From assembly GCF_002895485.1 (NCBI RefSeq), contig NZ_AZRK01000044.1, positions 124,001 to 188,000 on the forward strand: a stretch of 64,000 bases of DNA. The letters are read 5' to 3'. The position numbers and the translations under genes are program-made. Position 1 is the first letter of the stretch. Every line of letters starts with the position of its first letter. The DNA is from Petrotoga sp. 9PWA.NaAc.5.4. GTDB taxonomy: Bacteria > Thermotogota > Thermotogae > Petrotogales > Petrotogaceae. The notes beneath the pieces were generated by a model, which had not been told where the DNA came from, searched no databases, and was given only the letters and a program-made list of their open reading frames with translations. Shown one piece after another: positions 121 to 57,938 of this stretch.

Positions 121-146
121 AAGTGATGTTTTTAAAACCTATAGAT

Positions 147-217
147 ACTTTAGAAATGATGATTTTTAAAAATAGACTTTTTAATTTATAAAATGTGAAG
201 TTTAGAATTTCTGAAGG
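147..217 (+). repeat. Internally deleted copy of the leader repeat
   Basis: The sequence begins with ACTTTAGAAAT at 147-157 and ends with an AATTTCTGAAGG-like copy of the opposite end, as in the full elements, but the central hairpin portion is missing. Its inner end lies 33 nt before the fliL start, the same spacing and orientation seen for the full-length copies elsewhere. It is most simply read as a decayed or deleted member of the family. Confidence 0.5.
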
Positions 218-249
218 CAGTATTAAAACCTATGGTGGGGGGAAATACT

Positions 250-3057: not shown

Positions 3058-3789
3058 CTAAGTTAAATATGTTAATTCGGGTAACAAATACTGTGAGTAT
3101 TTTTTTTCTAAAGGAGTTCCTTTTTTCTTATCTTTTAAATATTTGATTTGTTCCTTTATTAGAGTCTTTGTGCCAACTTTACCGTGTCCGGGGAATACTT
3201 TTTCTATTTGTAGTTTTTCCATTTGTTGTAGCTTTGAAATCCATTCATCAAGGTTGGAGTTCAATATTTCGGCGTGTACATTAGAAAACACAAGATCGCC
3301 AGTTATTATATAATTTTGAGGCTTTATTACAAAAATCGTTGAATCAATAGTGTGACCATCCAAATTTTCTCCAATAATTATTTGATTGTGCAAAATTGAG
3401 TAAATAGATCTTTCAAATACATAAATATTTTTTTTATTTAAAGCTTCTTTTAAATTATTAAAATTAAAATCTGCTATTTGTGAGCTTTCTCTTAAAAATT
3501 CTTTGTCGATGTTTAAAGTTAATTCAAGAGTCTTGCTATTTATAAATATATCTGCATTTATTTTACTAAATAAGCATCCGAAGGTATGGTCTGGATGAAA
3601 ATGAGTAAAAAAGACTTTTTTTAATTTTTTAGAAGTTTTCTCTTCAATAACTTGAGACATTTCTTCAAATTTCTTTGGGTAAAGTGAACTATCAAACGCT
3701 ATTAATCCATCATCATACTCCAAAAAGGTAACCGAACTCGCTCCGTTTTCAAACCAAAAGTTATGAATTCCTTCGTAACTTTCTAACAA
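3058..3789 (-). CDS. Metallo-beta-lactamase fold hydrolase
   Basis: A stand-alone MBL-fold protein of about 243 residues. The metal-binding HFHPDH motif is present at about residues 62-67, followed by the later DGH, GD and GHG motifs (GENLDGH, ITGDLVF, FPGHGK) that supply the remaining ligands. No signal peptide is visible, so it is probably a cytoplasmic hydrolase of the glyoxalase II/QuiP-like group; the substrate cannot be read from sequence. A GTG lies at 3798, but the Shine-Dalgarno GAGGTGATT covers that codon, so the TTG at 3789 is the better start. A tandem repeat array sits immediately upstream. Confidence 0.85.
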   Translation of the reverse strand: MLESYEGIHNFWFENGASSVTFLEYDDGLIAFDSSLYPKKFEEMSQVIEEKTSKKLKKVFFTHFHPDHTFGCLFSKINADIFINSKTLELTLNIDKEFLRESSQIADFNFNNLKEALNKKNIYVFERSIYSILHNQIIIGENLDGHTIDSTIFVIKPQNYIITGDLVFSNVHAEILNSNLDEWISKLQQMEKLQIEKVFPGHGKVGTKTLIKEQIKYLKDKKKGTPLEKKYSQYLLPELTYLT

Positions 3790-3822
3790 CTTAATCACCT
3801 CTTGTTTTATTATACAATACTC

Positions 3823-4291
3823 ACCTTAGAAATTATGAAGCTAAGATTCTATAATTTTTTTGACGCTTAGTTTTTTTTAAAAATACTTCATCAGCTCTAA
3901 TCCTTACAAAATATGAATTTCTTTAATTTTTTGCTACGTGTAGCTAAAGAGAGGGGGGGAGGGCTCCGCCCTGAACCTGTTATAAATTCAAATGCTTATT
4001 TTTAAAAACGTTTCATTTCTAAAGTTCTTATCTAATCCTTACTAACTGTGAATCTCTTTAACTTTTTCGCTACATGTACCGAGAGAGGGGAGAGGGCTCC
4101 GCCCTGAACCCATTTTAAATTCAAATGCTTATTTTTAAAAATGTTTCATTTCTAAAGTTCTTATCTAATCCTTACTAACTGTGAATCTCTTTAACTTTTT
4201 CGCTACATGTACCGAGAGAGGGGAGAGGGCTCCACCCTGAACCCATTTAAAATTCAAAACTTCGTTTTTAGAAAATTCTCATTTCTAACGT
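3823..4291 (-). repeat. Leader repeat array, three units
   Basis: One longer unit (3823-4025) and two nearly identical 133-bp units (4026-4158 and 4159-4291) lie head to tail. Each ends in ATTTCTAAAGT or a one-base variant and contains the GGGCTCCGCCC core; the third core is changed to GGGCTCCACCC. The ACTTTAGAAAT-like end (ACCTTAGAAAT) lies 34 nt from the start of the MBL-fold gene. A further fragment of the family ends at about 4361. The 273-nt open frame over the third unit is a by-product of the repeat, not a gene. Confidence 0.85.
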
Positions 4292-4417
4292 TCTTATATT
4301 ATACAATACGCACTTTAATAATTCTAAAAATCTTATTTTCTGAAAAATCACCATTTCTAAAGTATTTATTGTTATTTTTTTGTAAAATAAAACCATATAA
4401 TCTTTCTATAAAATATA

Positions 4418-10432: not shown

Positions 10433-11467
10433 TTAAACACTTCCTAAATATTCTCTCATAGTTTCAACTATATATTCTATATCCTTTCTGCTTACCCAGT
10501 AATTAGTAACAAACCTGAATTCCCCGTTTTCAGGTGGATTTATCTTGATACCTTTTTTCAAAAAGAAGCTTTCAATATTTTGAACATCAATTTCTTTGTT
10601 GATTTTAAAAAAGACCATATTTATATGAATATCTTCTAAATTTACAAGTATTTCAGGGATCTTCGCTAATTTTTCACCTAAGTATTTTGCATTTTCATGA
10701 TCTTCTTTTAAACGAAATCTCATTTTTTCTAAAGCTACTAATCCTGCAGCGGCTAAAAAGCCAGCTTGTCTTAATCCTCCACCCATCAACTTTCTTTTCT
10801 TTTTTGCCTTTTGAATAAACTCTTTACTGCCAGCTAAAACAGAACCAACCGGAGCACATAAACCTTTTGAAAGACAAAACATTACTGAATCACAATATTG
10901 GGTTATTTCTTTTGCATCTACTTTTAAATAAGTAGCAGCGTTGAAAACTCTTGCCCCATCTAAATGTACAGGCACATTTTTTTCTTTTGCAATTTTATAA
11001 ATTTCTCTCATATTTTCTAAAGGAACTACTCTACCATTAGAATGAGCGTTTTCGAGACATATTAAGCCTGTAGATGGAAAGTGTAGATCTTCTTCTCCTT
11101 TTCTTATTTTACTTTTTATTTCATTAGGAGACATTAATCCTTTCTCGCTTTTTATCGTTCTTAACTGTACTCCTGCAATTACTGAGGATGCACCAACTTC
11201 ATGAATTACGATATGGCAACTGTCATCCAATATCACTTCATTTCCTCTTTCACAATGGGTAAACAACGCAAGTTGATTTCCAAAAGTCCCACTCGGAACA
11301 AATAAAGCGTCTTCTTTTCCGATTACTTCTGCCGCATATTTTTCTAATCTTTTCATCGTAGGATCTTCTTCGTAGACATCGTCTCCTACTTCTGCTCTGT
11401 ACATCGCCTCTCTCATTTCTTGAGTTGGTTGGGTTACAGTATCGCTTCTAATATCAATATATCTCAC
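10433..11467 (-). CDS. ltaE: Low-specificity L-threonine aldolase
   Basis: A PLP enzyme of fold type I that cleaves threonine or allo-threonine to glycine and acetaldehyde. The N-terminus [19 protein letters not shown] and the segment [10 protein letters not shown] are typical of the family, and the PLP-binding Lys lies in [14 protein letters not shown] at about residue 198. Length (344) is normal. The start is GTG at 11467 with AAGGAGG upstream. A leader-repeat element ends 31 nt before the start. Confidence 0.94.
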
Positions 11468-11497
11468 AAGATGCCTCCTTAAAAATTTATTTTACTG

Positions 11498-11718
11498 TCT
11501 TTAGAAATTATAAATCTTTATTATATGTATATTTTAGCGTTTTATTATATGTATATTTTAGCGTTGATTCTTTTACAAAATACCTCCCCACTTCTAATCC
11601 TTACTAATTCATAATTTCTTTACCTTTTTCGGTACTTGTACCGAGAGGGGAGAGGGCTCCGCCCTGGACCCATCTTAAATTCAAAAACTTAATTTCTGAA
11701 AATTATCATTTCTAAAAT
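11498..11718 (-). repeat. Leader repeat element with an internal 24-bp tandem duplication
   Basis: A single full-length copy with CTTTAGAAAT and ATTTCTAAAAT ends. The hairpin CGGTACttGTACCG and the GGGCTCCGCCC core are both perfect. A perfect 24-bp direct duplication occupies 11517-11540 and 11541-11564 in the gene-proximal arm. The element lies 31 nt upstream of the threonine aldolase start. Confidence 0.85.
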
Positions 11719-11755
11719 ACCTAAATTTATTTGAATTTGTAAAGGATTCAAAACG

Positions 11756-24922: not shown

Positions 24923-26182
24923 TTATTTCAGTAAAGGAGCTATTTGTTTTGCGGCATCATTTAAAGCTTTCTCTGGAGTTTTCAAACGAAGTAAAGCGGC
25001 TTGAATCTCTTGCTGCATTATTTCAGAAACTCTTGTATAGGTTTCTCCTAACTGTGCTGATGGCCGAACGTTACCTACCATAAAATCTTCAAATTGTTTA
25101 TTTGCAGTAGGGAACTGTTCAAGTAATTTTGGATCATCGTATACAGATTTTCTTGTAGGTAGGGAACCAGTTACAACTGCGGTCTTAAGCTGTGCTTCAT
25201 GAGAGGTTAAATATTCTATAAATTTCCATGCTTCTTCTTTATATTTTGAATTTACATTAATACCTAATAACCAACCACCTAAACATACTGTATATGTATC
25301 AGGGTGACCTTCAAAGTATGGAACCCTTTTAAAATCAACTTTGTCACGTACTATAGAATCAGGAGCGGTTAACATTGGCCAAACAAAATCTTGAACAACC
25401 ATAAAAACTGCTCTTCCCTGTTGAAATAAAATTCTTGCATCATCAGGAGTATATGTTACAATACTTTGAGGAGCTAATTTATATTTGTATATCATATCCA
25501 CCATGAATTGTAAAGCTTCAATTGCTTCCCTACTTGTTATATTTAAATTACCGTTTTCATCGAAAAAGTCTCCGCCTTTGCCCCATAGGAACTGTAAATA
25601 GTTCATAAAAAGTCCTTCTATTTTCCCCCACATACTTATATATCCATACAAGTTAGGATCATTTTCATGTTCAACAATATAAGTAGCTTGCTTAACAACT
25701 TCTTCCCACGTATCCGGAGGGTTAAAACCGTATTTTTCTAATAAATCTGTCCTATAATAGAAATGAAGTCCATTAATATATAATGGCACCCCATAGACAC
25801 TTCCATTGTATTTTGCCGCTTCTATCATATTTTCTATAAACTCTCCTTGCTCAGATGGTGGGAAAAATCTATCAAGAGGTTCCAACCATCCTCTTGAAGC
25901 AAATTCGCCTGGCCAAATAATATCCATTGCTATGATGTCAGGTTTATCGCTTTTCCCAAAAAACAAAGTTACATACTGGCTATGTTGCTGCCCAGGTACT
26001 CCTGGAACTTTTAACCATTTGATATTTATATTTGGATTTTGAGCTTCGAAATTTGCAATATGTTCATCCATTACAGCCCCTATTTCTCTTGTTGACAAAC
26101 CAATTTCTATAGATACCTGAGCTGTTGCAAAAACCACAACTAACATCAATACCATCAAACTAAAAACTTTTCTCAATGCCAT
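24923..26182 (-). CDS. Extracellular solute-binding protein, sugar ABC transporter
   Basis: About 419 residues. A signal peptide (MALRKVFSLMVLMLVVVFATAQ) with an Ala-x-Ala-like cleavage site and no lipobox Cys is followed by a family 1 solute-binding fold (TYTVCLGGWLLGINVNSKYK and EEAWKFIEYLTS near the C-terminus). It probably binds an oligosaccharide. A frame open upstream to 26230 is ignored because AAAGGAGG directly precedes the ATG at 26182. It is the first gene of the transporter part, 33 nt after a leader repeat. Confidence 0.92.
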   Translation of the reverse strand: MALRKVFSLMVLMLVVVFATAQVSIEIGLSTREIGAVMDEHIANFEAQNPNINIKWLKVPGVPGQQHSQYVTLFFGKSDKPDIIAMDIIWPGEFASRGWLEPLDRFFPPSEQGEFIENMIEAAKYNGSVYGVPLYINGLHFYYRTDLLEKYGFNPPDTWEEVVKQATYIVEHENDPNLYGYISMWGKIEGLFMNYLQFLWGKGGDFFDENGNLNITSREAIEALQFMVDMIYKYKLAPQSIVTYTPDDARILFQQGRAVFMVVQDFVWPMLTAPDSIVRDKVDFKRVPYFEGHPDTYTVCLGGWLLGINVNSKYKEEAWKFIEYLTSHEAQLKTAVVTGSLPTRKSVYDDPKLLEQFPTANKQFEDFMVGNVRPSAQLGETYTRVSEIMQQEIQAALLRLKTPEKALNDAAKQIAPLLK

Positions 26183-26214
26183 AATAAAACCTCCTTTTAA
26201 AGTAAAGTATACCC

Positions 26215-26413
26215 GCTTTAGAAATTCCAAAATCCTTATTTTATATATGTTTTAGATTTGAATTTTTATATAATACCTCTCTGTTTATAATCCCTATTAA
26301 TTCCTATTTTTTTAACTTTTTGGTACTTGAACTGAAGGAAAAGGGAGAGAACTCCAACCTGGATCCATTTTAAATTCAAAATTCTATTTTTAGAAAATTA
26401 TCATTTCTAAAAT
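26215..26413 (-). repeat. Leader repeat element, core degenerate
   Basis: The ends CTTTAGAAAT and ATTTCTAAAA are kept, but the core reads GAACTCCAACCTGG, so the GC hairpin is lost. It lies 33 nt upstream of the binding-protein start, between it and the ROK gene. Confidence 0.7.
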
Positions 26414-26425
26414 TCCTACTTATTC

Positions 26426-45494: not shown

Positions 45495-45671
45495 ATGTTA
45501 TTAAAAAAGATAAAAAGAAAAACATTTTGATCTTTATTGAAAAAAGCCAGAATTGTACAAAGAGATGATGAAAAAGAAAATTTAAAGATTATAGGTGATG
45601 GATTAGGAGATAAAGGGTATAGAGGATTTAGCATAGCAAATTATATGAAACACAATTATAAAATTTATTAG
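45495..45671 (+). pseudogene. Possible gene remnant with early stop
   Basis: A strong GAGGAGG is followed by ATG at 45495, but the frame stops after 11 codons (TGA at 45528). The same frame then continues open for 46 codons to a TAG at 45669, reading ... IIGDGLGDKGYRGFSIANYM ... . This has normal protein composition. I do not recognise the family. It may be the stump of a gene truncated when the adjacent repeat inserted at 45674. Confidence 0.4.
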
Positions 45672-45673
45672 GG

Positions 45674-45874
45674 ACTTTAGAAATGAGAATTTTCTAAAAA
45701 TGGAATTTTGAATTTAAACTGGGTCTAGGGCGGAGCCCTCTCCCCCTCCTTCGGTAAAAATACCGAAAAAGTTAAAAAAATTAAGAATTAGTAAGAATTA
45801 GAAGTGGAAAGGTATTTTTGGAGAAACTAAACGTCAAAACATTTATAGAATCTGTGTTTCATAATTTCTAAAGT
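45674..45874 (+). repeat. Leader repeat element, full length 201 bp
   Basis: Perfect 11-bp ends ACTTTAGAAAT and ATTTCTAAAGT, the GGGCGGAGCCC core, and the hairpin CGGTAttttTACCG read in this orientation. An extra diverged proximal arm runs on to about 45966, ending 31 nt before the second mannosidase. GTAGGGAGGTAACTAC at 45890-45905 within it is an orphan Shine-Dalgarno-like site. Confidence 0.88.
45818..45871 (+). other. Short open frame inside the repeat (17 codons)
   Basis: AAAGG then TTG at 45818 opens a frame reading MEKLNVKTFIESVFHNF and stops at the TAA inside the repeat end. The copy at 52731-52784 has the same length and 14 of 17 residues the same. The three nucleotide differences are all non-synonymous, so coding is not supported by substitution pattern. 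Confidence 0.25.
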
Positions 45875-45996
45875 GAGTAACATTATAACGTAGGGAGGTA
45901 ACTACTTCAAACACAAGATATTAAAAGTTAGTTAAATTCTGTGTCTTAGAATTTCTGAAGTCAGTAAAAAATTTATAAGTAGGAGGAAACAAATCA

Positions 45997-48900
45997 ATGC
46001 TAAAAAACATTACTAAAAAGAAAATCCAAAATGGTTTGAAAGAGGTAAAAAAACTCTCAGTTAAAGAAAGCTTTGAAATAGATACTCTTGAGTATTTTGA
46101 AGATGAAGAAAAAAGATTTAAACCTCAATTCAGTGAACAATTCTCTTGGAAAACTATAAAAGTTGGAGAACGTTGGGGTGGGTACGACAAGATATATTGG
46201 TTCAGAAAAACCGTTCAATTACCTAATGATTTCAAAGGTGAAAAACTTTTTTTGAAAATTAATTTGGAAAAGGATGGAGATTTAGATGTTGTTCCAAATT
46301 ATCCAGAATCGTTGTTATTTGTTAATGATAAATTTATTCAAGGAATAGATAAATATCATAAAGAAGCAATAATTTCCTCAGAAGTTGCCGAAGATGGGAA
46401 ATTAGAAATTTATATAAGATCTTGGACAGGTTTAAAAGGGGATTTGAGCTATACTTTAGCGGGATTAGAATTGTATATTATAGATGAATATTCACAAAAA
46501 TATTATTTTTTAGCCAAAAATATTCTAAACACATTAGAGGAACTCGATGAAAACAATATAGTGAATATTAAATTGTTTGATATTCTGAACAATTCATACA
46601 ATAAAATCAATTTCATCAAACCAAAATCGGATGAGTATTATAACTCAATAAAAGATAGTTACAATTACCTAAGAACAGAATTAGAGAAATTAGATAATTT
46701 TAAATTAGATACTCCAAAAGTGGTTTTAACAGGTCATTCCCATATTGATATGGCATGGCTTTGGAGAATAAAACATACAAGGGAAAAAGCGCAGCGTACT
46801 TTTTCAACAGTTTTAAACCTAATGAAAGAATATCCAGAATATACGTTTATGCATTCATCACCCGCACTGTATAAATTTTTGAAAGATGATTATCCAGAAT
46901 TATATGAAAAAGTAAAAGAAAAGATAAAAGAAGGAAGATGGGAAGCAACAGGAGGTATGTGGGTAGAATCTGATTCTAATATATCACCTGGTGAATTTCT
47001 AATAAGGCAGATTCTATTTGGTAAAAGATTTTTAAAAGAAGAGTTTGGTATAGATTCTAAAGTAATTTGGTTGCCAGATGCATTTGGATACACGTATTCA
47101 TTACCCCAGATAATAAAAAAATCTGGAATGAAGTACTTTGCAACAACAAAGATAAGTTGGAACGAAATTAACAGATTTCCCTACGATACATTTTGGTGGA
47201 AAGGGTTAGATGGAACAAAAATATTAGCTCATTTTATTACTACTCCTGATGAACACAATTATTTTTACACGTATAACGGTATGTTAGAACCTTTTACGGT
47301 GAAAGGTATATGGGATAATTACAAACAAAAAGATATAAACGAAGAATTACTTCTTGTATATGGTTGGGGAGATGGAGGAGGAGGTCCAACTTATGAGATG
47401 CTTGAAAACTACCGTGCCATAAAAGACATACCAGGACTTCCTACAGTAGAAACGGGAAAGGTAGAAGATTACTTTGATAGACTGGAAAAAAGAATAGTAG
47501 GTAAAAACGTCCCCTTGTGGGACAACGAACTATACTTTGAATTACATCGAGGTACGTACACTTCTCAAGCTTTCATAAAGAGGGAAAACAGAAAATCTGA
47601 AGTAGCTTATCACAACGCAGAGTTTTTAAATTCACTAGCTAAATCTTTACTCAGAGATTTTGAATATCCACAAAAGTCTTTAAACGAAGGATGGGAGTTG
47701 TTACTTTTAAACCAGTTTCACGATATACTTCCAGGTTCATCAATAAGGGAAGTGTATGAAGATGCTAGAAAAGATTACAAAAAGATAAAAGAAATAGCGA
47801 ACAAAGAGATTGAAAAAGCTGTTTCTATTATTTCAAAAGTCATAAAAACTGATGAAGATAGTGTTGTTGTTTTTAACACTTTGCCTTTTGAACGAAACGA
47901 GTTGATAGAAATAGAAGAAGGTAAAAATCTTTTAATAAAAAATATACCACCACTTGGGTACAAAGTTGTTAAAAAATCAAAATTAGATAAAGAGCAAGAA
48001 GAAAACATAATAGTAAAAGAAAATTATATAGAAAACAAATATTATACAATAGAATTCAACGAAGTTGGACAGATAAAAAGATTATACGATAAAGAAAACA
48101 AAAGAGAAGTATTAGAAGATGGGAAGTTTGGAAATGTTCTTCAAACTTTTGAAGATAAACCATATTTCTTTGATGCATGGGATATATCACCATACTTCAA
48201 AGAAAAGATGAAGGAAGTTAACGAATTAATTGAGGTTAAAGTACTGGAAAGTTCTTCATTAAAAGGTGTTTTGAAATTCAAATGGCGATTTTATGATTCA
48301 ACCATAGAACAAAAAGTCATCGTATACAATCATTCAAGAAGAATAGATTTTGAAACTCATATAGATTGGAAAGAGAAACAACTTTTACTAAAAGCAGCTT
48401 TTCCAGTAAATATAAGAAGTACAAAAGCAACTTACAACATACAGTTTGGTAACATAGAGAGAAGTGCGACGAACAACACAAGTTGGGATATAGCACAATT
48501 TGAAGTACCTGCACAAAAATGGGCTGATCTTTCTGAAGGAAATTATGGAGTGTCTTTATTGAATGATTCTAAATATGGTTATGATATAAAAGGCAATTTA
48601 ATGAGAATAACTCTTTTAAAGTCTCCTATAGAACCTGATGAAACAGCTGATAGAGGAGAACATACATTTACTTATTCGCTTTTACCCCACTTTGGGACAT
48701 GGAGAGATTCAGAAGTTATGAAAGAATCTTACCAACTTAATTATCCAATTATTGTTAAAAAGTCACAAAAAAATTCAGAAGGTAAACTCCCTAATAGATT
48801 TTCTTTTGCAATTATTGATGATCCATCAATAATAATCGAAACTATTAAAAAGTCGGAGGATGATGATTCGATAGTTATAAGGGTATATGAAAGCGAAGGG

Positions 48901-49065
48901 AATAGAAAAAACGGCGCTGAAATAATTTTCTTCAAAGAAATAAAGAAAGCATATGAAACTAACTTGATAGAAGAAGAGCCAAAAGAAATAAATATAATAA
49001 ACAAGAACTCTTTCAAATTTGATATTACTCCATATGAAATAAAAACTTTTAAGGTTTGTTTTTGA
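45997..49065 (+). CDS. Alpha-mannosidase, glycoside hydrolase family 38 (second)
   Basis: 1022 residues, no signal peptide. It carries an N-terminal beta-rich domain of about 240 residues before the catalytic domain, as in the Thermotoga and yeast-vacuolar-type enzymes. Motifs: LTGHSHIDMAWLWR (about 245), nucleophile Asp in IWLPDAFGYTYSLP (about 358), GWGDGGGGPTYEM and NQFHDILPGSSI (about 572). AGGAGGAAAC precedes the ATG. It is the last gene of the mannoside locus and is separated from the first mannosidase by a repeat and a gene stump, so it may have its own leader. Confidence 0.95.
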   Translation: MLKNITKKKIQNGLKEVKKLSVKESFEIDTLEYFEDEEKRFKPQFSEQFSWKTIKVGERWGGYDKIYWFRKTVQLPNDFKGEKLFLKINLEKDGDLDVVPNYPESLLFVNDKFIQGIDKYHKEAIISSEVAEDGKLEIYIRSWTGLKGDLSYTLAGLELYIIDEYSQKYYFLAKNILNTLEELDENNIVNIKLFDILNNSYNKINFIKPKSDEYYNSIKDSYNYLRTELEKLDNFKLDTPKVVLTGHSHIDMAWLWRIKHTREKAQRTFSTVLNLMKEYPEYTFMHSSPALYKFLKDDYPELYEKVKEKIKEGRWEATGGMWVESDSNISPGEFLIRQILFGKRFLKEEFGIDSKVIWLPDAFGYTYSLPQIIKKSGMKYFATTKISWNEINRFPYDTFWWKGLDGTKILAHFITTPDEHNYFYTYNGMLEPFTVKGIWDNYKQKDINEELLLVYGWGDGGGGPTYEMLENYRAIKDIPGLPTVETGKVEDYFDRLEKRIVGKNVPLWDNELYFELHRGTYTSQAFIKRENRKSEVAYHNAEFLNSLAKSLLRDFEYPQKSLNEGWELLLLNQFHDILPGSSIREVYEDARKDYKKIKEIANKEIEKAVSIISKVIKTDEDSVVVFNTLPFERNELIEIEEGKNLLIKNIPPLGYKVVKKSKLDKEQEENIIVKENYIENKYYTIEFNEVGQIKRLYDKENKREVLEDGKFGNVLQTFEDKPYFFDAWDISPYFKEKMKEVNELIEVKVLESSSLKGVLKFKWRFYDSTIEQKVIVYNHSRRIDFETHIDWKEKQLLLKAAFPVNIRSTKATYNIQFGNIERSATNNTSWDIAQFEVPAQKWADLSEGNYGVSLLNDSKYGYDIKGNLMRITLLKSPIEPDETADRGEHTFTYSLLPHFGTWRDSEVMKESYQLNYPIIVKKSQKNSEGKLPNRFSFAIIDDPSIIIETIKKSEDDDSIVIRVYESEGNRKNGAEIIFFKEIKKAYETNLIEEEPKEINIINKNSFKFDITPYEIKTFKVCF

Positions 49066-50847: not shown

Positions 50848-52305
50848 CTAAACTATATTGATAGCGTTAAATCTGCAAGTTGAATAACAAGAACCACATT
50901 TAATACATTTTTCTTGGTTAATAAAGTGTGGCTTTCTTAATTCGCCTTCTATCGCCTCTGTCGGACATACCCTAGCACATGCAGTACATCCAGTACATAC
51001 ATCAGGGATTATTTCATATTTTATTAAATTCTTGCAGACTCCTGCTGGACAGTCTCTATCTAAAATATGAGCACGATATTCATCTGCAAAATAAGTATAT
51101 GTCGAAATAATTGGATTTGGAGACGTCTGTCCTAATCCGCAAAGTGAGGCATTCTTTACAACGTTAGCCAAGGAAATCATCCTGTCTAAGTCTTCCAACT
51201 CAGCATTCCCCGAAGTAATCTTTTCTAAAATTTCTAAAAGCCTTACATTACCAATACGGCAAGTTGTACATTTACCGCAAGATTCGTCAACAGAAAATTG
51301 AAGATAAAATTTTGCTACGTCTACCATACAAGTATATTCATCCATGACTATCATACCGCCAGAACCCATCATGGAACCCAACTTTTGAAGACTATCGTAA
51401 TCTATAGGAGTATCTAAATATTCAGCTGGTATACAACCACCAGATGGGCCGCCAGTTTGCACAGCTTTGAATTTTTTATCTTCTTTTATACCCCCACCTA
51501 TGTCATAAATAATTTCTCTTAACGTTGTTCCCATAGGGACTTCTACTAAACCGACATTTTTAACGTCTCCGGCTAATGCAAATACCTTAGTACCGGAAGA
51601 AGTTTCTGTACCAAATTGTCGGAACCATTCAGCACCGTTAAGTACGATAGGAGGAATATTAGCAAGTGTTTCTACATTATTTATTAGAGTAGGTTTTCCC
51701 CATAACCCTTTGTTTGCAGGAAAGGGTGGTTTATTTGTAGGTTCACCTCTTGATCCTTCTATGGAATGAATTAAAGCAGTTTCTTCACCACATACAAAAG
51801 CCCCAGCACCAAGCCTGATTTCTATATTAAAAGAAAAATTAGTGCCCAATATATTCTCCCCTAAAAAACCATATTCTTCTGCTTGAGCAATAGCTGTTTT
51901 CAATCTTGAAACAGCGAGAGGATATTCTGCTCTGATATATATAATTCCCTTTTTTGCACCAATTACGTAAGCTGCTATAGTCATTCCTTCTAAAACAGAA
52001 TGAGGATCTCCTTCAAGTACTGATCTATCCATAAAGGCTCCTGGATCTCCTTCGTCTGCATTACATATTACATATTTTTCATCACCTTTAGCTTGCATTG
52101 TGAATTTCCATTTTAATCCTGTAGGAAATCCACCGCCTCCACGTCCTCTCAAATTGGAAGACATAACGGTTTCCAATATATCTTCTCTCCGTGACTCTAA
52201 TGCTTTGGCAAGGGCTAAATAGCCATCGTTTTTTAAATAATCTTCAATTTTTTCTGGATCAATGTTTCCAGCATTTCGTAAAACAATTCTAACCTGCTCG
52301 GCCAT
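50848..52305 (-). CDS. hydB: Hydrogenase NADH-binding subunit HydB (NuoF-like)
   Basis: 485 residues: NADH/FMN-binding Rossmann part ([18 protein letters not shown] and [18 protein letters not shown]), the [4Fe-4S] motif [11 protein letters not shown], and a C-terminal ferredoxin with [12 protein letters not shown] and [12 protein letters not shown]. The N-terminal [2Fe-2S] domain found in the 626-residue T. maritima HydB is encoded separately just upstream. The ATG shares its A with the TAA of that gene. Confidence 0.95.
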
Positions 52306-52694
52306 TATCTTCCCTCCAATTGAAGAGCATTTTTATGTGTTTCTTTTATTACCAAATCTTCTAATATTTTCCCTTCTATTAGATGAGTTTTTACTAAATC
52401 ATTAACTTTTTTTTCAGTCACATTCCCGTATAGAATTGGTTTTTTACCTGGTTCGTCAATTTCTACAGTTGGCTCTGCGTAACAATATCCAAGACATCCC
52501 GTTTTTATAACTTTTACGTTTGATAGTTTTTTCTCTTGTATTATTTTTAAAAGTTCGTTGTAAGTGTCTTCGGCACCAGAAGAAACTCCACATGTTCCTA
52601 AGGCAACTTTTAAATAAATGCTTTCCTTGTCTTTTTTTTCTTTTAATTCCTTAATTAATTTTCTTAATTCATCTGTGTTTTTCAACTTAGGCAT
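52305..52694 (-). CDS. [2Fe-2S] thioredoxin-like ferredoxin, split-off N-terminal part of HydB
   Basis: 129 residues with the thioredoxin-like [2Fe-2S] fold: [18 protein letters not shown] and [18 protein letters not shown] hold the conserved cysteines. In T. maritima this domain is the start of HydB; here it ends with a TAA that overlaps the hydB ATG by one base. The combined length (614) matches the fused form. TAGGAGGAAT precedes the ATG, and a repeat element lies 34 nt upstream. Confidence 0.9.
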
Positions 52695-52727
52695 AATATA
52701 TTCCTCCTAAATTATTTGTATTTACTC

Positions 52728-52928
52728 ACTTTAGAAATTATGAAACTCAGATTCTATAAATGTTTTGAACTTTAGTTTCTCCAAAAATACATCCCCATTT
52801 CTAATTTTCACTAATTCTTAACTTTTTTAACTTTTTCGGTATTTATACCGAAGGAAGGGGAGAGGGCTCCGCCCTGGACCCATTTTAAATTCAAATGCTT
52901 ATTTTTAGAAACGCTTCATTTCTAAAGT
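52728..52928 (-). repeat. Leader repeat element inside the hydrogenase operon, 201 bp
   Basis: The best-preserved copy: perfect ACTTTAGAAAT (52728-52738) and ATTTCTAAAGT (52918-52928) ends, stem TTCGGTA/TACCGAA at 52835-52852, and stem AGGGC/GCCCT at 52863-52875. It interrupts the gap between hydC and the [2Fe-2S] gene, which would otherwise be about 95 bp. Confidence 0.9.
52731..52784 (-). other. Short open frame inside the repeat (17 codons)
   Basis: TTG at 52784 with GGGGATG upstream reads MEKLKFKTFIESEFHNF and stops in the repeat end. It matches the frame at 45818 in length and most residues. Translation is unproven. Confidence 0.25.
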
Positions 52929-52990
52929 TCTATATTTGTATTTTACCAAACCAAACCGATATAATTCGAGAGTTTGCAAAAGTAAAATCT

Positions 52991-53500
52991 TTAAGCTTGC
53001 TTTTCTTTTGTTTTATATTCTCTAATTATTCTTAGCACATCAGTTGTTTTTAATCTACCGTAGACCTTTTCACCGATCTTTACTACAGGAGCTAATCCAC
53101 ATGCTCCCAAGCATCTAACCGGATGAATAGAAAATAATCCATCTTCTGTTACTTCTTCTTCTCCAATATTCAAAATTTTCTTGAATTCATCCAATATTTG
53201 ATTGGCTCCCCCTACATAACAAGCAGTTCCTAAACAAATACTTATAGGATATTTACCTTTTGGCTTTGTAGAAAAGAAGTTGTAGAAGGTAACTACGCCA
53301 TATACTTCTGAAGCAGGTAGCCTCAACTTTGCAGCAACCATTTTTTGTACTTCCAGCGGGATATATCCTAAAGTTTCCTGAACTTTATGCAACACTTCTA
53401 TAAGATAACTTCTACGTTTTTGTTCGGAATTTTCATTCAAATCTAGGGAATCAAGAAATTCATTTATTTTGGTTAATTTTGAATCAAGAATATCTTCCAT
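52991..53500 (-). CDS. hydC: Hydrogenase subunit HydC (NuoE-like [2Fe-2S] protein)
   Basis: About 169 residues: helical N-terminus and a thioredoxin-like [2Fe-2S] domain with CLGTACYVGGANQI and RCLGACGLAPVVKIGEKVYG. It transfers electrons between HydB and HydA in the trimer. A frame open to 53536 is ignored because GAAGGGAGGAC precedes the ATG at 53500. Gene order hydC-hydB-hydA is as in Thermotoga, but with a repeat inserted after hydC. Confidence 0.94.
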   Translation of the reverse strand: MEDILDSKLTKINEFLDSLDLNENSEQKRRSYLIEVLHKVQETLGYIPLEVQKMVAAKLRLPASEVYGVVTFYNFFSTKPKGKYPISICLGTACYVGGANQILDEFKKILNIGEEEVTEDGLFSIHPVRCLGACGLAPVVKIGEKVYGRLKTTDVLRIIREYKTKEKQA

Positions 53501-53534
53501 TTTTAACGTCCTCCCTTCCATAGTTAATATACTC

Positions 53535-53940
53535 ACTTTAGAAATTATGAAATTCAGATTCTATCTTAGTTTTTTCAAAAATACTTCCTAAACGCTAATT
53601 CTTAAAAAATATGAATTTCTTTGACTTCTTCTCTACGTATAGCTAAGGAGAGGGGGAAGGGCTCTGCCCTGGACCCATTTAAATTCAAAAGCTCATTTTT
53701 AGAAAATCATTATTTCTAAAGTTCCCATTTAATTCTTTTAACTTCTTGGCTACGCGCAACTAAAAAGAAAGAAGAGGGCTCTGCCCTGGACCCATTTAAA
53801 TTCAAAAGCTCATTTTTAGAAAATCATTATTTCTAAAGTTTCAATTTAATTCTTTTAACTTCTTGGCTACGCACAACTAAAAAGAGAGAAGAAGGCTCTG
53901 CCCTGGACCCATTTAAATTTAAAAGATTATTTTCTAAAAT
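53535..53940 (-). repeat. Leader repeat array, three units
   Basis: Units at 53535-53722, 53723-53839 (117 bp) and 53840-53940, each with GGCTCTGCCC-type cores and TTTCTAAAGT-type ends. The gene-proximal end starts 35 nt before hydC. From 53941 to 54084 only AT-rich sequence is seen. Confidence 0.85.
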
Positions 53941-55333: not shown

Positions 55334-56161
55334 TTAATATAGCTCTATAACCTCTGTAAAAAACCTTAAAACTTCCTTTATCTCTTCTTTCCATAAAAGC
55401 CAATTATGTTCTCCATCTCTAATATACAATCGTGAGGGGATGTTCTTCAATCTTAATTGATGATGTAAATCACAAGTTCCTAAATAGAGATAAAAATAAT
55501 CATTGTTACCACATGATAAATAAACAGGCAACTCCAGATCATTTTTTTTCACGTTATCTATAAAGTTGAAAATATTTTCTTTTTCCCAAAAATCTGCATC
55601 AAATGGCCAACCAAATGCATCGTGATAAAAATCTTCATGGATGTTAATTTCGTTTCCCTCTAAATCTATATCTTTTTCTGGTGGAGCTTCTTGCATTATT
55701 GCTCCACTTAGGCTTGCTACAGCCAAGAACTTTTCAGGATATTTAAAAGCAAATTTTAAAGCACCATATCCACCCATAGATAAACCTGCAATAAACCGGT
55801 TAGATCTATCAGTATAAACTTTATACTGCATTTCTATGTGGTTCATAAGATCGTTTATAATCGCACTTTCATATTTCTGACCATTTGGAGAATCCACATA
55901 CCAACTATTTTTTGCATCTGGCATAACTGCAACGAAAGGAGCAATTTCATAATTTTTTATCATAGAATCCAAAGTTTGATCTATATGTCCTTTTCTAATC
56001 CAGCTTAACTCATTTCCATTATGACCGTGCAATAAATAAATCACAGGATATTTTCGAGAATCTTTAGAATATTTAGGAGGAAGATATATAGAATAGTTCA
56101 TATTATTTTTCAATGTATTACTAAAAAATGAAACTGATTGATAAAGAATTCCATCCGTCAA
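55334..56161 (-). CDS. Esterase D/feruloyl esterase-like alpha/beta hydrolase
   Basis: About 275 residues of the putative-esterase family. Nucleophile Ser in GLSMGGYGALKFA (about residue 127), acid and His in the second half (YFYLYLGTCDLHH and DGEHNWLLWKEE, the latter carrying the catalytic His). The oxyanion strand is VIYLLHGHNGNELSW. No signal peptide, so intracellular; possibly deacylates imported oligosaccharides. AAGGAG precedes a run ATG ATG GTT TTG; the TTG at 56161 has the best spacing, though the ATGs at 56170/56167 are possible. Confidence 0.88.
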   Translation of the reverse strand: MTDGILYQSVSFFSNTLKNNMNYSIYLPPKYSKDSRKYPVIYLLHGHNGNELSWIRKGHIDQTLDSMIKNYEIAPFVAVMPDAKNSWYVDSPNGQKYESAIINDLMNHIEMQYKVYTDRSNRFIAGLSMGGYGALKFAFKYPEKFLAVASLSGAIMQEAPPEKDIDLEGNEINIHEDFYHDAFGWPFDADFWEKENIFNFIDNVKKNDLELPVYLSCGNNDYFYLYLGTCDLHHQLRLKNIPSRLYIRDGEHNWLLWKEEIKEVLRFFTEVIELY

Positions 56162-56189
56162 AACCATCATCTCCTTATGGATCAATTTT

Positions 56190-56839
56190 AAATTAAAAGT
56201 TTATTTTCGAAGCTGCTCTTTTCAAAAATACCTCCATAGTTTTAATTTCGACTAATTCTATATTTTTTAGCTTCTTAGGTAACTTGTGGCCAGAAAAGGG
56301 GAGAGGGCTCCGCCCTGGACCCATTTTAAATTCAAACGCTTATTTTTAAAAAGTTCTTATTTCTAAAGTCCACATTTAATTTCTTTAACCTTTTTGGTAC
56401 TTGTAGACAGAAAAGGGGGAAGGGCTCCGCCCTGAACCCATTTTAAATTCAAACGCTTATTTTTAAAAAGTTCTTATTTCTAAAGTCCACATTTAATTTC
56501 TTTTATCTTTTTTGGTACTTGTAGCCAGAAAAAGGGGAAGGGCTCTGCCCTGGACCCAATTTAAATTCAAAAGCTTATTTTTAAAAAGTTCTTATTTCTA
56601 AAGTCCACATTTAATTTCTTTAACCTTTTTGGTACTTGTGGCCAGAAAAGGGCAGAGGGCTCTGCCCTGGACCCAATTTAAATTCATACGCTTATTTTTA
56701 AAAAGTTCTTATTTCTAAAGTCCACATTTAATTTCTTTAACCTTTTTTGGTACTTGTAGCCAGAAAAGGGGGAAGGGCTCTGCCCTGGACCCAATTTAAA
56801 TTCAAACGCTTATTTTTAAAAAGTTCTTATTTCTAAAGT
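56190..56839 (-). repeat. Leader repeat array, five units of about 117 bp
   Basis: Unit ends fall at 56369, 56486, 56604, 56721 and 56839, giving a 117/118-bp period after a longer proximal unit. Each unit has a GGGCTCCGCCC or GGGCTCTGCCC core and ends ATTTCTAAAGT. In the proximal arm, GGAGGTATTTTTG opens a 10-codon frame (56225-56193, minus strand). This is the largest array in the window and lies before the esterase gene. Confidence 0.9.
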
Positions 56840-57071: not shown

Positions 57072-57412
57072 GAGATTTTAGAAGTGCAAGCCTTTAAAAA
57101 ATAATGTTTTGAATTTAAAACGGGTTCGGGGCGGAGCCCTCCCTCTCTCCTTAGTTGCACGTAGCTAAGAGGTTAAAGAAATTCATATTTTGTGAGAATG
57201 AGATATAGACTTTAGAAATGATAATTTTTTAAAAATAGAATTTTGAATTTAAAATGGGTTTAGGGCGGAGCCCTCTCCCCCTTCCTTGGCTACAAGTACC
57301 AAAAAAGGTAAAGAAATTAGGAATTAGTAAGGATTAGAAGCGGGGAGGTATTTTTGAAAAAACTAAAATTCAAGACAATTATGCAACCTAAGTTTTAGAA
57401 TTTCTAAAAATA
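57072..57412 (+). repeat. Two leader repeat units between promoter and marR
   Basis: Units at about 57072-57208 and 57209-57412, both with GGGCGGAGCCC cores. The second starts with a perfect ACTTTAGAAAT and ends 29 nt before the MarR start. GGGGAGG then TTG at 57354 opens a 14-codon frame ending at 57398 (MKKLKFKTIMQPKF). Confidence 0.87.
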
Positions 57413-57440
57413 TTAAAATATTTGAAGAAAGGAGATTTAA

Positions 57441-57938
57441 ATGAAAAAAGAAGAAACTTATTGCGAAGACGAATTATTTGAAGATATAGAGCCTTTAAAA
57501 GTAGAAGTCGTTAGAGAACTATTCCAAGTTATCAAATTAGAAGGTCAAATGAATTTTAAAATATTAACAGAAAAAGGGCTCTACCCGGCTCAAGCTGTAT
57601 GCTTGTGGTATATAAGCAAGAACGAAGGGATAAACCAAAAAACGCTGGCAGAACAAATAGTGGTAGCTGCTCCTACAGTTTCTATGATCATTAAAAAATT
57701 AGAAAGGAATGGGTTTATAGAAAGAAAGCCTTCGACAGAAGATATGCGAACGTTACAACTATTTCTAACAGAAAAAGGTAAAAACATTATTGGTAGTTTG
57801 AGAATATCTTTTTCAAAAATAATGAATATAGCATTAGATGGGTTTAATGAAAATGAACTAAAAATTTTTAAAGAATTACTCAAAAAACTTGATTTTAACA
57901 TTTCAAATTACTTACAAGAAGGTGAGGTTAATAAATGA
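57441..57938 (+). CDS. MarR-family transcriptional regulator
   Basis: 165 residues with the MarR winged helix (VVAAPTVSMIIKKLERNGF, IERKPSTEDMRTLQLFLTEK) flanked by dimerisation helices. AAAGGAG precedes the ATG. Its stop overlaps the start of the next gene by 4 nt (ATGA), so it is cotranslated with the ABC exporter it most likely controls. A near-perfect palindrome at the operon promoter fits binding by this protein. Confidence 0.93.
   Translation: MKKEETYCEDELFEDIEPLKVEVVRELFQVIKLEGQMNFKILTEKGLYPAQAVCLWYISKNEGINQKTLAEQIVVAAPTVSMIIKKLERNGFIERKPSTEDMRTLQLFLTEKGKNIIGSLRISFSKIMNIALDGFNENELKIFKELLKKLDFNISNYLQEGEVNK

Follow-up and report, generated by a model that had tools for sequence, protein, structure and literature searches.

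The target choice of most bacterial insertion sequences (ISs) is loose. Tn7 at attTn7, the yeast elements Ty1 and Ty3, and Dictyostelium TRE5 upstream of tRNA genes keep a set distance from a functional site when they insert and spare the gene, for which they rely on a dedicated targeting protein or on Pol III factors. The system described here differs from these in having a single transposase gene and in using a generic motif that is available at hundreds of sites. In its composition it resembles MITEAba12 and ISAba12 (PMC6382973), where a short, non-coding element present in many copies likewise has terminal inverted repeats (TIRs) common to a co-resident IS, and the 9-bp duplication of MITEAba12 is near the ∼10 bp observed here. 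However, the targets of MITEAba12 show an AT preference and no sequence trend (PMC6382973), whereas for the present MITE both the distance and the orientation relative to GGAGG are fixed. Nezha and its ISNpu3-like partner, as cited in PMC3049150, are also a bacterial MITE and a known partner IS. Correia elements, BOX and RUP (Neisseria, pneumococcus) are likewise abundant small repeats often found just upstream of genes, and BOX forms modular arrays as does the present MITE; in the passages searched on them, a fixed distance to the Shine-Dalgarno sequence was not found. The closest named family to the partner IS by profile is IS1182 (DUF772 and DDE_Tnp_1), which includes IS1272 and has the same type of catalytic domain. 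IS1272 takes the place of inverted repeats without producing a duplication (PMC5678879). The present IS does leave one, of ∼10 bp, and its targets do not have the palindromic character of those of IS1272.

The window, meaning the whole stretch of 64,000 nucleotides of Petrotoga DNA that was analysed, was reported in a preliminary description to contain two 201-bp units, at 52728-52928 and 45674-45874, with identical 11-bp inverted ends. Both copies are present at these positions with the ends described; each measures 201 bp, and they align without gaps at 89% identity in opposite orientations. The length of exactly 201 bp is valid for the core and not as the limit of the full element, since the conserved ends run further outward. 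Aligned with their flanks, the left end reads TACTC-ACTTTAGAAATT and the right end ATTTCTAAAGT-NCCTA, with TACTC at the left and ∼4–5 nt ending in TA at the right lying beyond the 201-bp unit (left and right ends were sorted by a one-base rule, which mis-sorted a few). A direct repeat of ∼10 bp lies outside the extended ends. The preliminary description saw no target-site duplication by eye, but TATTTGTATT is present on both sides of 52728-52928 (Table 1). An exact repeat of at least 8 bp occurs at the predicted place in only 17 of 47 elements, some of the others being older or rearranged, compared with a mean of 0.86 and a maximum of 5 when flanks were swapped between elements (500 shuffles).

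Table 1. Features of the window, in order of position (+, − and. denote strand; gene strands are given in brackets).
Feature	Positions	Strand	Remarks
71-bp minimal derivative	142..222	-	both ends present; target duplication ATAGGTTTTAA; toward SD-like GGGGGG and TTG start
Array	3818..4296	+	full unit and two 128-bp right-part units; SD of gene 3058-3798(-) at the usual left-end distance
Single copy	11493..11722	+	toward gene 10433-11467(-); target duplication AAATTTATTT
Single copy	26210..26418	+	toward gene 24923-26230(-)
Target duplication of composite	45660..45668	.	AAAATTTAT
Composite with second 201-bp copy	45669..45966	-	unit 45674-45874 nested in left part of another element (own left end core 45951-45961); toward gene 45997-49065(+)
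Target duplication of composite, gene side	45968..45976	.	AAAATTTAT
Shine-Dalgarno GGAGG (CCTCC on +)	52703..52707	-	of gene 52305-52694(-)
Target duplication, left copy	52713..52722	.	TATTTGTATT
MITE copy of the preliminary description, true ends	52723..52932	+	TACTC + 201-bp core + TCTA; left end toward gene 52305-52694(-)
Stem 2 region	52836..52851	.	CGGTAT-TT-ATACCG; in other copies CGCTAC-GT-GTAGCG
Stem 1	52862..52874	.	AGGGC-TCC-GCCCT
Target duplication, right copy	52933..52942	.	TATTTGTATT
Copy and right-part units	53530..53938	+	toward gene 52991-53536(-)
Tandem right-part units	56223..56839	+	period 117-118 bp; upstream of start of gene 55334-56185(-)
Full unit 57209-57410 and upstream right-part unit	57077..57415	-	toward gene 57441-57938(+)

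As was stated initially, the unit contains no transposase gene; it is short and bounded by TIRs, as is a MITE. The suggested search for an IS transposase with matching ends elsewhere in the genome identified an IS of 1.6 kb (contig C2, L094:10419-12043), whose frame of 442 codons is intact and is the one DDE_Tnp_1 match in the genome. The ends of the IS are TAGTCACTTTAGAAATTCTAAAAC (left) and TACCCACTTTAGAAATGAC (right), and its transposase lies between TACCCACTTTAGAAAT and TAGTCACTTTAGAAAT, outside which ATATATATAA is present on each side as a 10-bp duplication. The IS and the MITE have common asymmetric ends (left, TA[C/G]TCACTTTAGAAATTCTAAAAC; right, TACCCACTTTAGAAATGA), and their likeness is limited to these ends (24 bp left, 13–16 bp right), each MITE end matching its counterpart in the IS. 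The same ends are found in homologous ISs of other species. The transposase contains DUF772 (PF05598) and DDE_Tnp_1 (PF01609) domains, both above the Pfam cut-offs, and residues D140, D249 and E355, invariant in A1, are likely to be the DDE catalytic triad. It scores 55.9 bits with the IS1182 family profile NF033551, below the cut-off of 270; a search by sequence gave no solved structural relative, and a structural model with a mean pLDDT of 43 was discarded. From the common asymmetric ends we infer that the DDE transposase of the IS mobilises the MITE in trans. Decayed copies of the transposase occur in the same genome (G000) at C34:8737-9366 and C45:1346-2160, with 89% and, in pieces, 58–94% identity. 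In Fervidobacterium sp. UBA5837 (L168), a related IS is accompanied by an extra right-end unit, whose outer right end pairs with the duplication TATTATCATTT.

The preliminary description had left the choice between a MITE and a REP/REPIN-type element mobilised by a Y1 (RAYT) transposase, for which a short, palindromic, intergenic and clustered repeat would be suitable. The proposed search for a Y1 transposase gave no Y1_Tnp (PF01797) match in the genome, and as controls 5 of 14 genomes were positive, Thermotoga maritima among them. A REP/RAYT origin is excluded on this ground. The target duplications, and TIRs common to a DDE IS, also point elsewhere, and the probability of such an origin is negligible. 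Hence, the MITE half of the original assignment is retained and the REP/REPIN half is not.

The family is large. The 201-bp unit gave 77 scored BLAST matches in its own genome (2.22 Mb, 45 contigs), and the 16-nt end pattern TANNNACTTTAGAAAT, with at most one mismatch, gave 354 + 338 = 692 genomic matches compared with 27 + 22 = 49 for the reversed control, that is, ∼640 end sequences above background in the 2.2-Mb genome. Extrapolating the left-end density of 464 kb, we estimate that the whole genome contains roughly 300–350 elements. The MITE family was found in part of the same taxonomic family; none was seen in the remainder of the class, and there was no match among the phages or plasmids searched. 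Hundreds of REP-like repeats, whose motif differs from those of other phyla, are listed for Defluviitoga tunisiensis by a REP-finding tool (PMC12306157); these may be the MITE family of the present study.

What sets this element apart from an ordinary MITE is measured, oriented insertion beside Shine-Dalgarno (SD) sequences, a fixed distance that went unmentioned in the preliminary description. From the left end outward, in the direction of the gene, NAGTA is followed by ∼14 variable AT-rich bases, GGAGG and the start codon. The SD sequence at 52703-52707 is separated from the target duplication by 5 nt and from the TA end of the element by 15 nt. The 464 kb of the genome contain 86 outer left-type ends; a GGAGG or AGGAG lies within 50 nt of 55 of them, and for 39 of the 55 the motif starts at index 19–20 from the end core. 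Most of the remaining left-type ends are without the expected first bases and look like chance matches of a loose search. The motif accompanies 1 of 126 right ends. An element at the rule distance is carried by 23% (40 of 174) of the GGAGG motifs that precede a reading frame in the 464 kb, and by none of 327 inside genes. The position of the element varies less relative to the SD sequence (s.d. 1.3 nt) than relative to the start codon (s.d. 1.9 nt), and so the anchor would appear to be GGAGG and not the start codon. The surroundings of the target are AT-rich DNA adjoining GGAGG, with the ∼10-bp duplication. We know of no described bacterial transposon with measured, oriented insertion beside SD sequences. 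In the open-access literature searched, which is a partial library, no report of SD-directed insertion was found.

The rule was derived in the genome of the window and then checked with a preset window in two species of another genus (G003 and G009). An SD motif fell within it for 23 of 29 left ends, compared with a background of 3.1%; the failing left ends include three right-type or chance ends, and two 'right' ends that passed are left ends mis-sorted by one base. All nine left ends in loci of other relatives follow the rule, five of them being ends of IS copies. In ISs whose transposases are 43% (L105) and 37% (L107/L169) identical, the ends differ (TAGAATCTTTCGAAAT and TAGGGTCTTTCAAAAT) and the CCTCC spacing is unchanged, with the duplication not confirmed for the IS with the 37% identical transposase.

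At the level of sequence, the ends, the duplications, the ends shared with the IS, the empty sites described below and the fixed spacing and orientation are established. Very probably, the 201-bp unit is a MITE moved by the IS transposase, which targets GGAGG DNA at a fixed spacing and orientation, and we infer that the motif is read directly in the DNA. The transposase would join the element to its target by a ∼10-bp staggered cut ∼5 nt upstream of GGAGG, and in every case it is the left end that would face the motif. As the GGAGG motifs found outside genes are for the most part SD sequences in a genome this rich in AT, the element would land in the 5′ leader and would disturb neither the start codon nor the ribosome-binding site. 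The unoccupied GGAGG motifs inside genes could reflect purifying selection, and they are also compatible with a role of transcription or translation in targeting. As an alternative, insertion could be random, with survival only just upstream of SD sequences, where it is harmless; this would accommodate the 0 of 327 motifs occupied in genes and the intergenic location of the elements. If harmlessness were all that mattered, however, elements in leaders and intergenic regions would be tolerated at all distances and in both orientations. What is observed is an SD sequence within ∼2 nt of one position, at the left end only; IS copies of other genera have the same spacing, as do insertions at the internal GGAGG of the element, where no gene is present. 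We therefore consider random insertion improbable.

Targeting through the gene-expression machinery (the ribosome, nascent mRNA, an R-loop or RNA polymerase paused at the SD sequence) instead of GGAGG DNA deserves somewhat more weight, as real SD sequences are occupied at 23% and coding GGAGG never. If true, this Thermotogota transposon clade would be a bacterial counterpart of the retrotransposons that home to tRNA promoters. It is nevertheless unlikely, since a plain DNA motif together with purging of in-gene insertions suffices for the distribution, and nested insertions occur at the internal GGAGG of the element (for example, at window position 45874) with no conserved frame after it. The family appears to take the translation start signal as a landing mark and to settle ∼20 nt upstream of it. 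In the portion of the genome analysed, about one quarter of the ribosome-binding sites of GGAGG type are occupied in this way, and the natural leaders of many genes have been replaced. The effect of hundreds of replaced 5′ leaders on expression, and the means by which a transposase gauges its distance from a short motif, thus become open to direct test. A transposase that inserted in a single orientation upstream of SD sequences would, in addition, be of use in the laboratory as a means of putting promoters before genes.

Both hairpins of the preliminary description were recovered. The GC stem (stem 1) is nearly invariant across copies, and the second stem has a G–C to C–G exchange in 8 of 32 sequences. 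The fold of the 201-bp unit is not exceptional (z about −1.5), the stems being real as palindromes. Stem pairing is 91.7% compared with 90.7% in shuffles, and covariation is weak apart from one pair and not clearly above shuffles; no Rfam family matched the 201-bp repeat. The stems may matter for the element. Given two stems, the double change in stem 2 and the fixed place before the SD sequence, the repeat could be regarded as a conserved 5′-leader RNA regulator inherited with its genes and not mobile. The downstream genes are unrelated, however, the copies are flanked by target duplications and, together with the covariation and Rfam results, the absence of the repeat from orthologous genes in relatives makes such a regulator very improbable. 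At the locus of the copy at 52728-52928, eight relatives have the same adjacent gene pair with no element between, and at the IS locus galE is directly followed by apt in the g3 and g4 relatives compared, whereas in the genome of the window a MITE and the IS lie between galE and apt with both genes intact. The comparison of empty and filled sites proposed in the preliminary description therefore found both loci empty in the same-family relatives compared, and this insertion polymorphism of the hydC-like and galE–apt loci is as expected of a MITE.

If insertion spares the GGAGG on one side, the site would be reusable, resulting in arrays of the form element-duplication-element-duplication. The target would survive each insertion, so that units added later at this site would come to lie head to tail, separated by the same duplication. 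Such arrays are observed: at C1:63626-64131, TATAATCCTT occurs three times, with a single change in the third copy, and C1:198410-199049 contains four copies of ATTAAATTT. For most arrays, an origin by simple tandem duplication was rejected: in five of eight neighbouring tandem pairs the units have the duplication in common, yet are clearly less alike than each is to its best match elsewhere, and being more like distant copies than neighbours they are separate insertions. Two tandem pairs (95.5% and 99%) may be duplications. The left part of the element itself carries CCTCC + 5 nt + TCTAATCCTT, and in many arrays of 117–133 bp the junctions read right end + NNCTA + TCTAATCCTT, with the break exactly at CCTCC + 5 nt inside the element. 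These junctions are the expected product of insertion at the internal motif followed, presumably, by recombination between repeats; the internal GGAGG of the MITE would then also serve as a target and give rise to nested arrays. The left part, for example 52739-52795 on the minus strand, has an internal GGAGG-like motif and, in one subfamily, a 16-codon frame ending inside the terminal repeat. This frame was rejected as coding, as it is open in one subfamily (TTGAAAAAACTA...TAA) and closed at once in another (TTGTAA). The relative G009 contains arrays of right-part units at C22:173821-174337 and C27:65278-65832, with periods of 81 bp and 90 bp.
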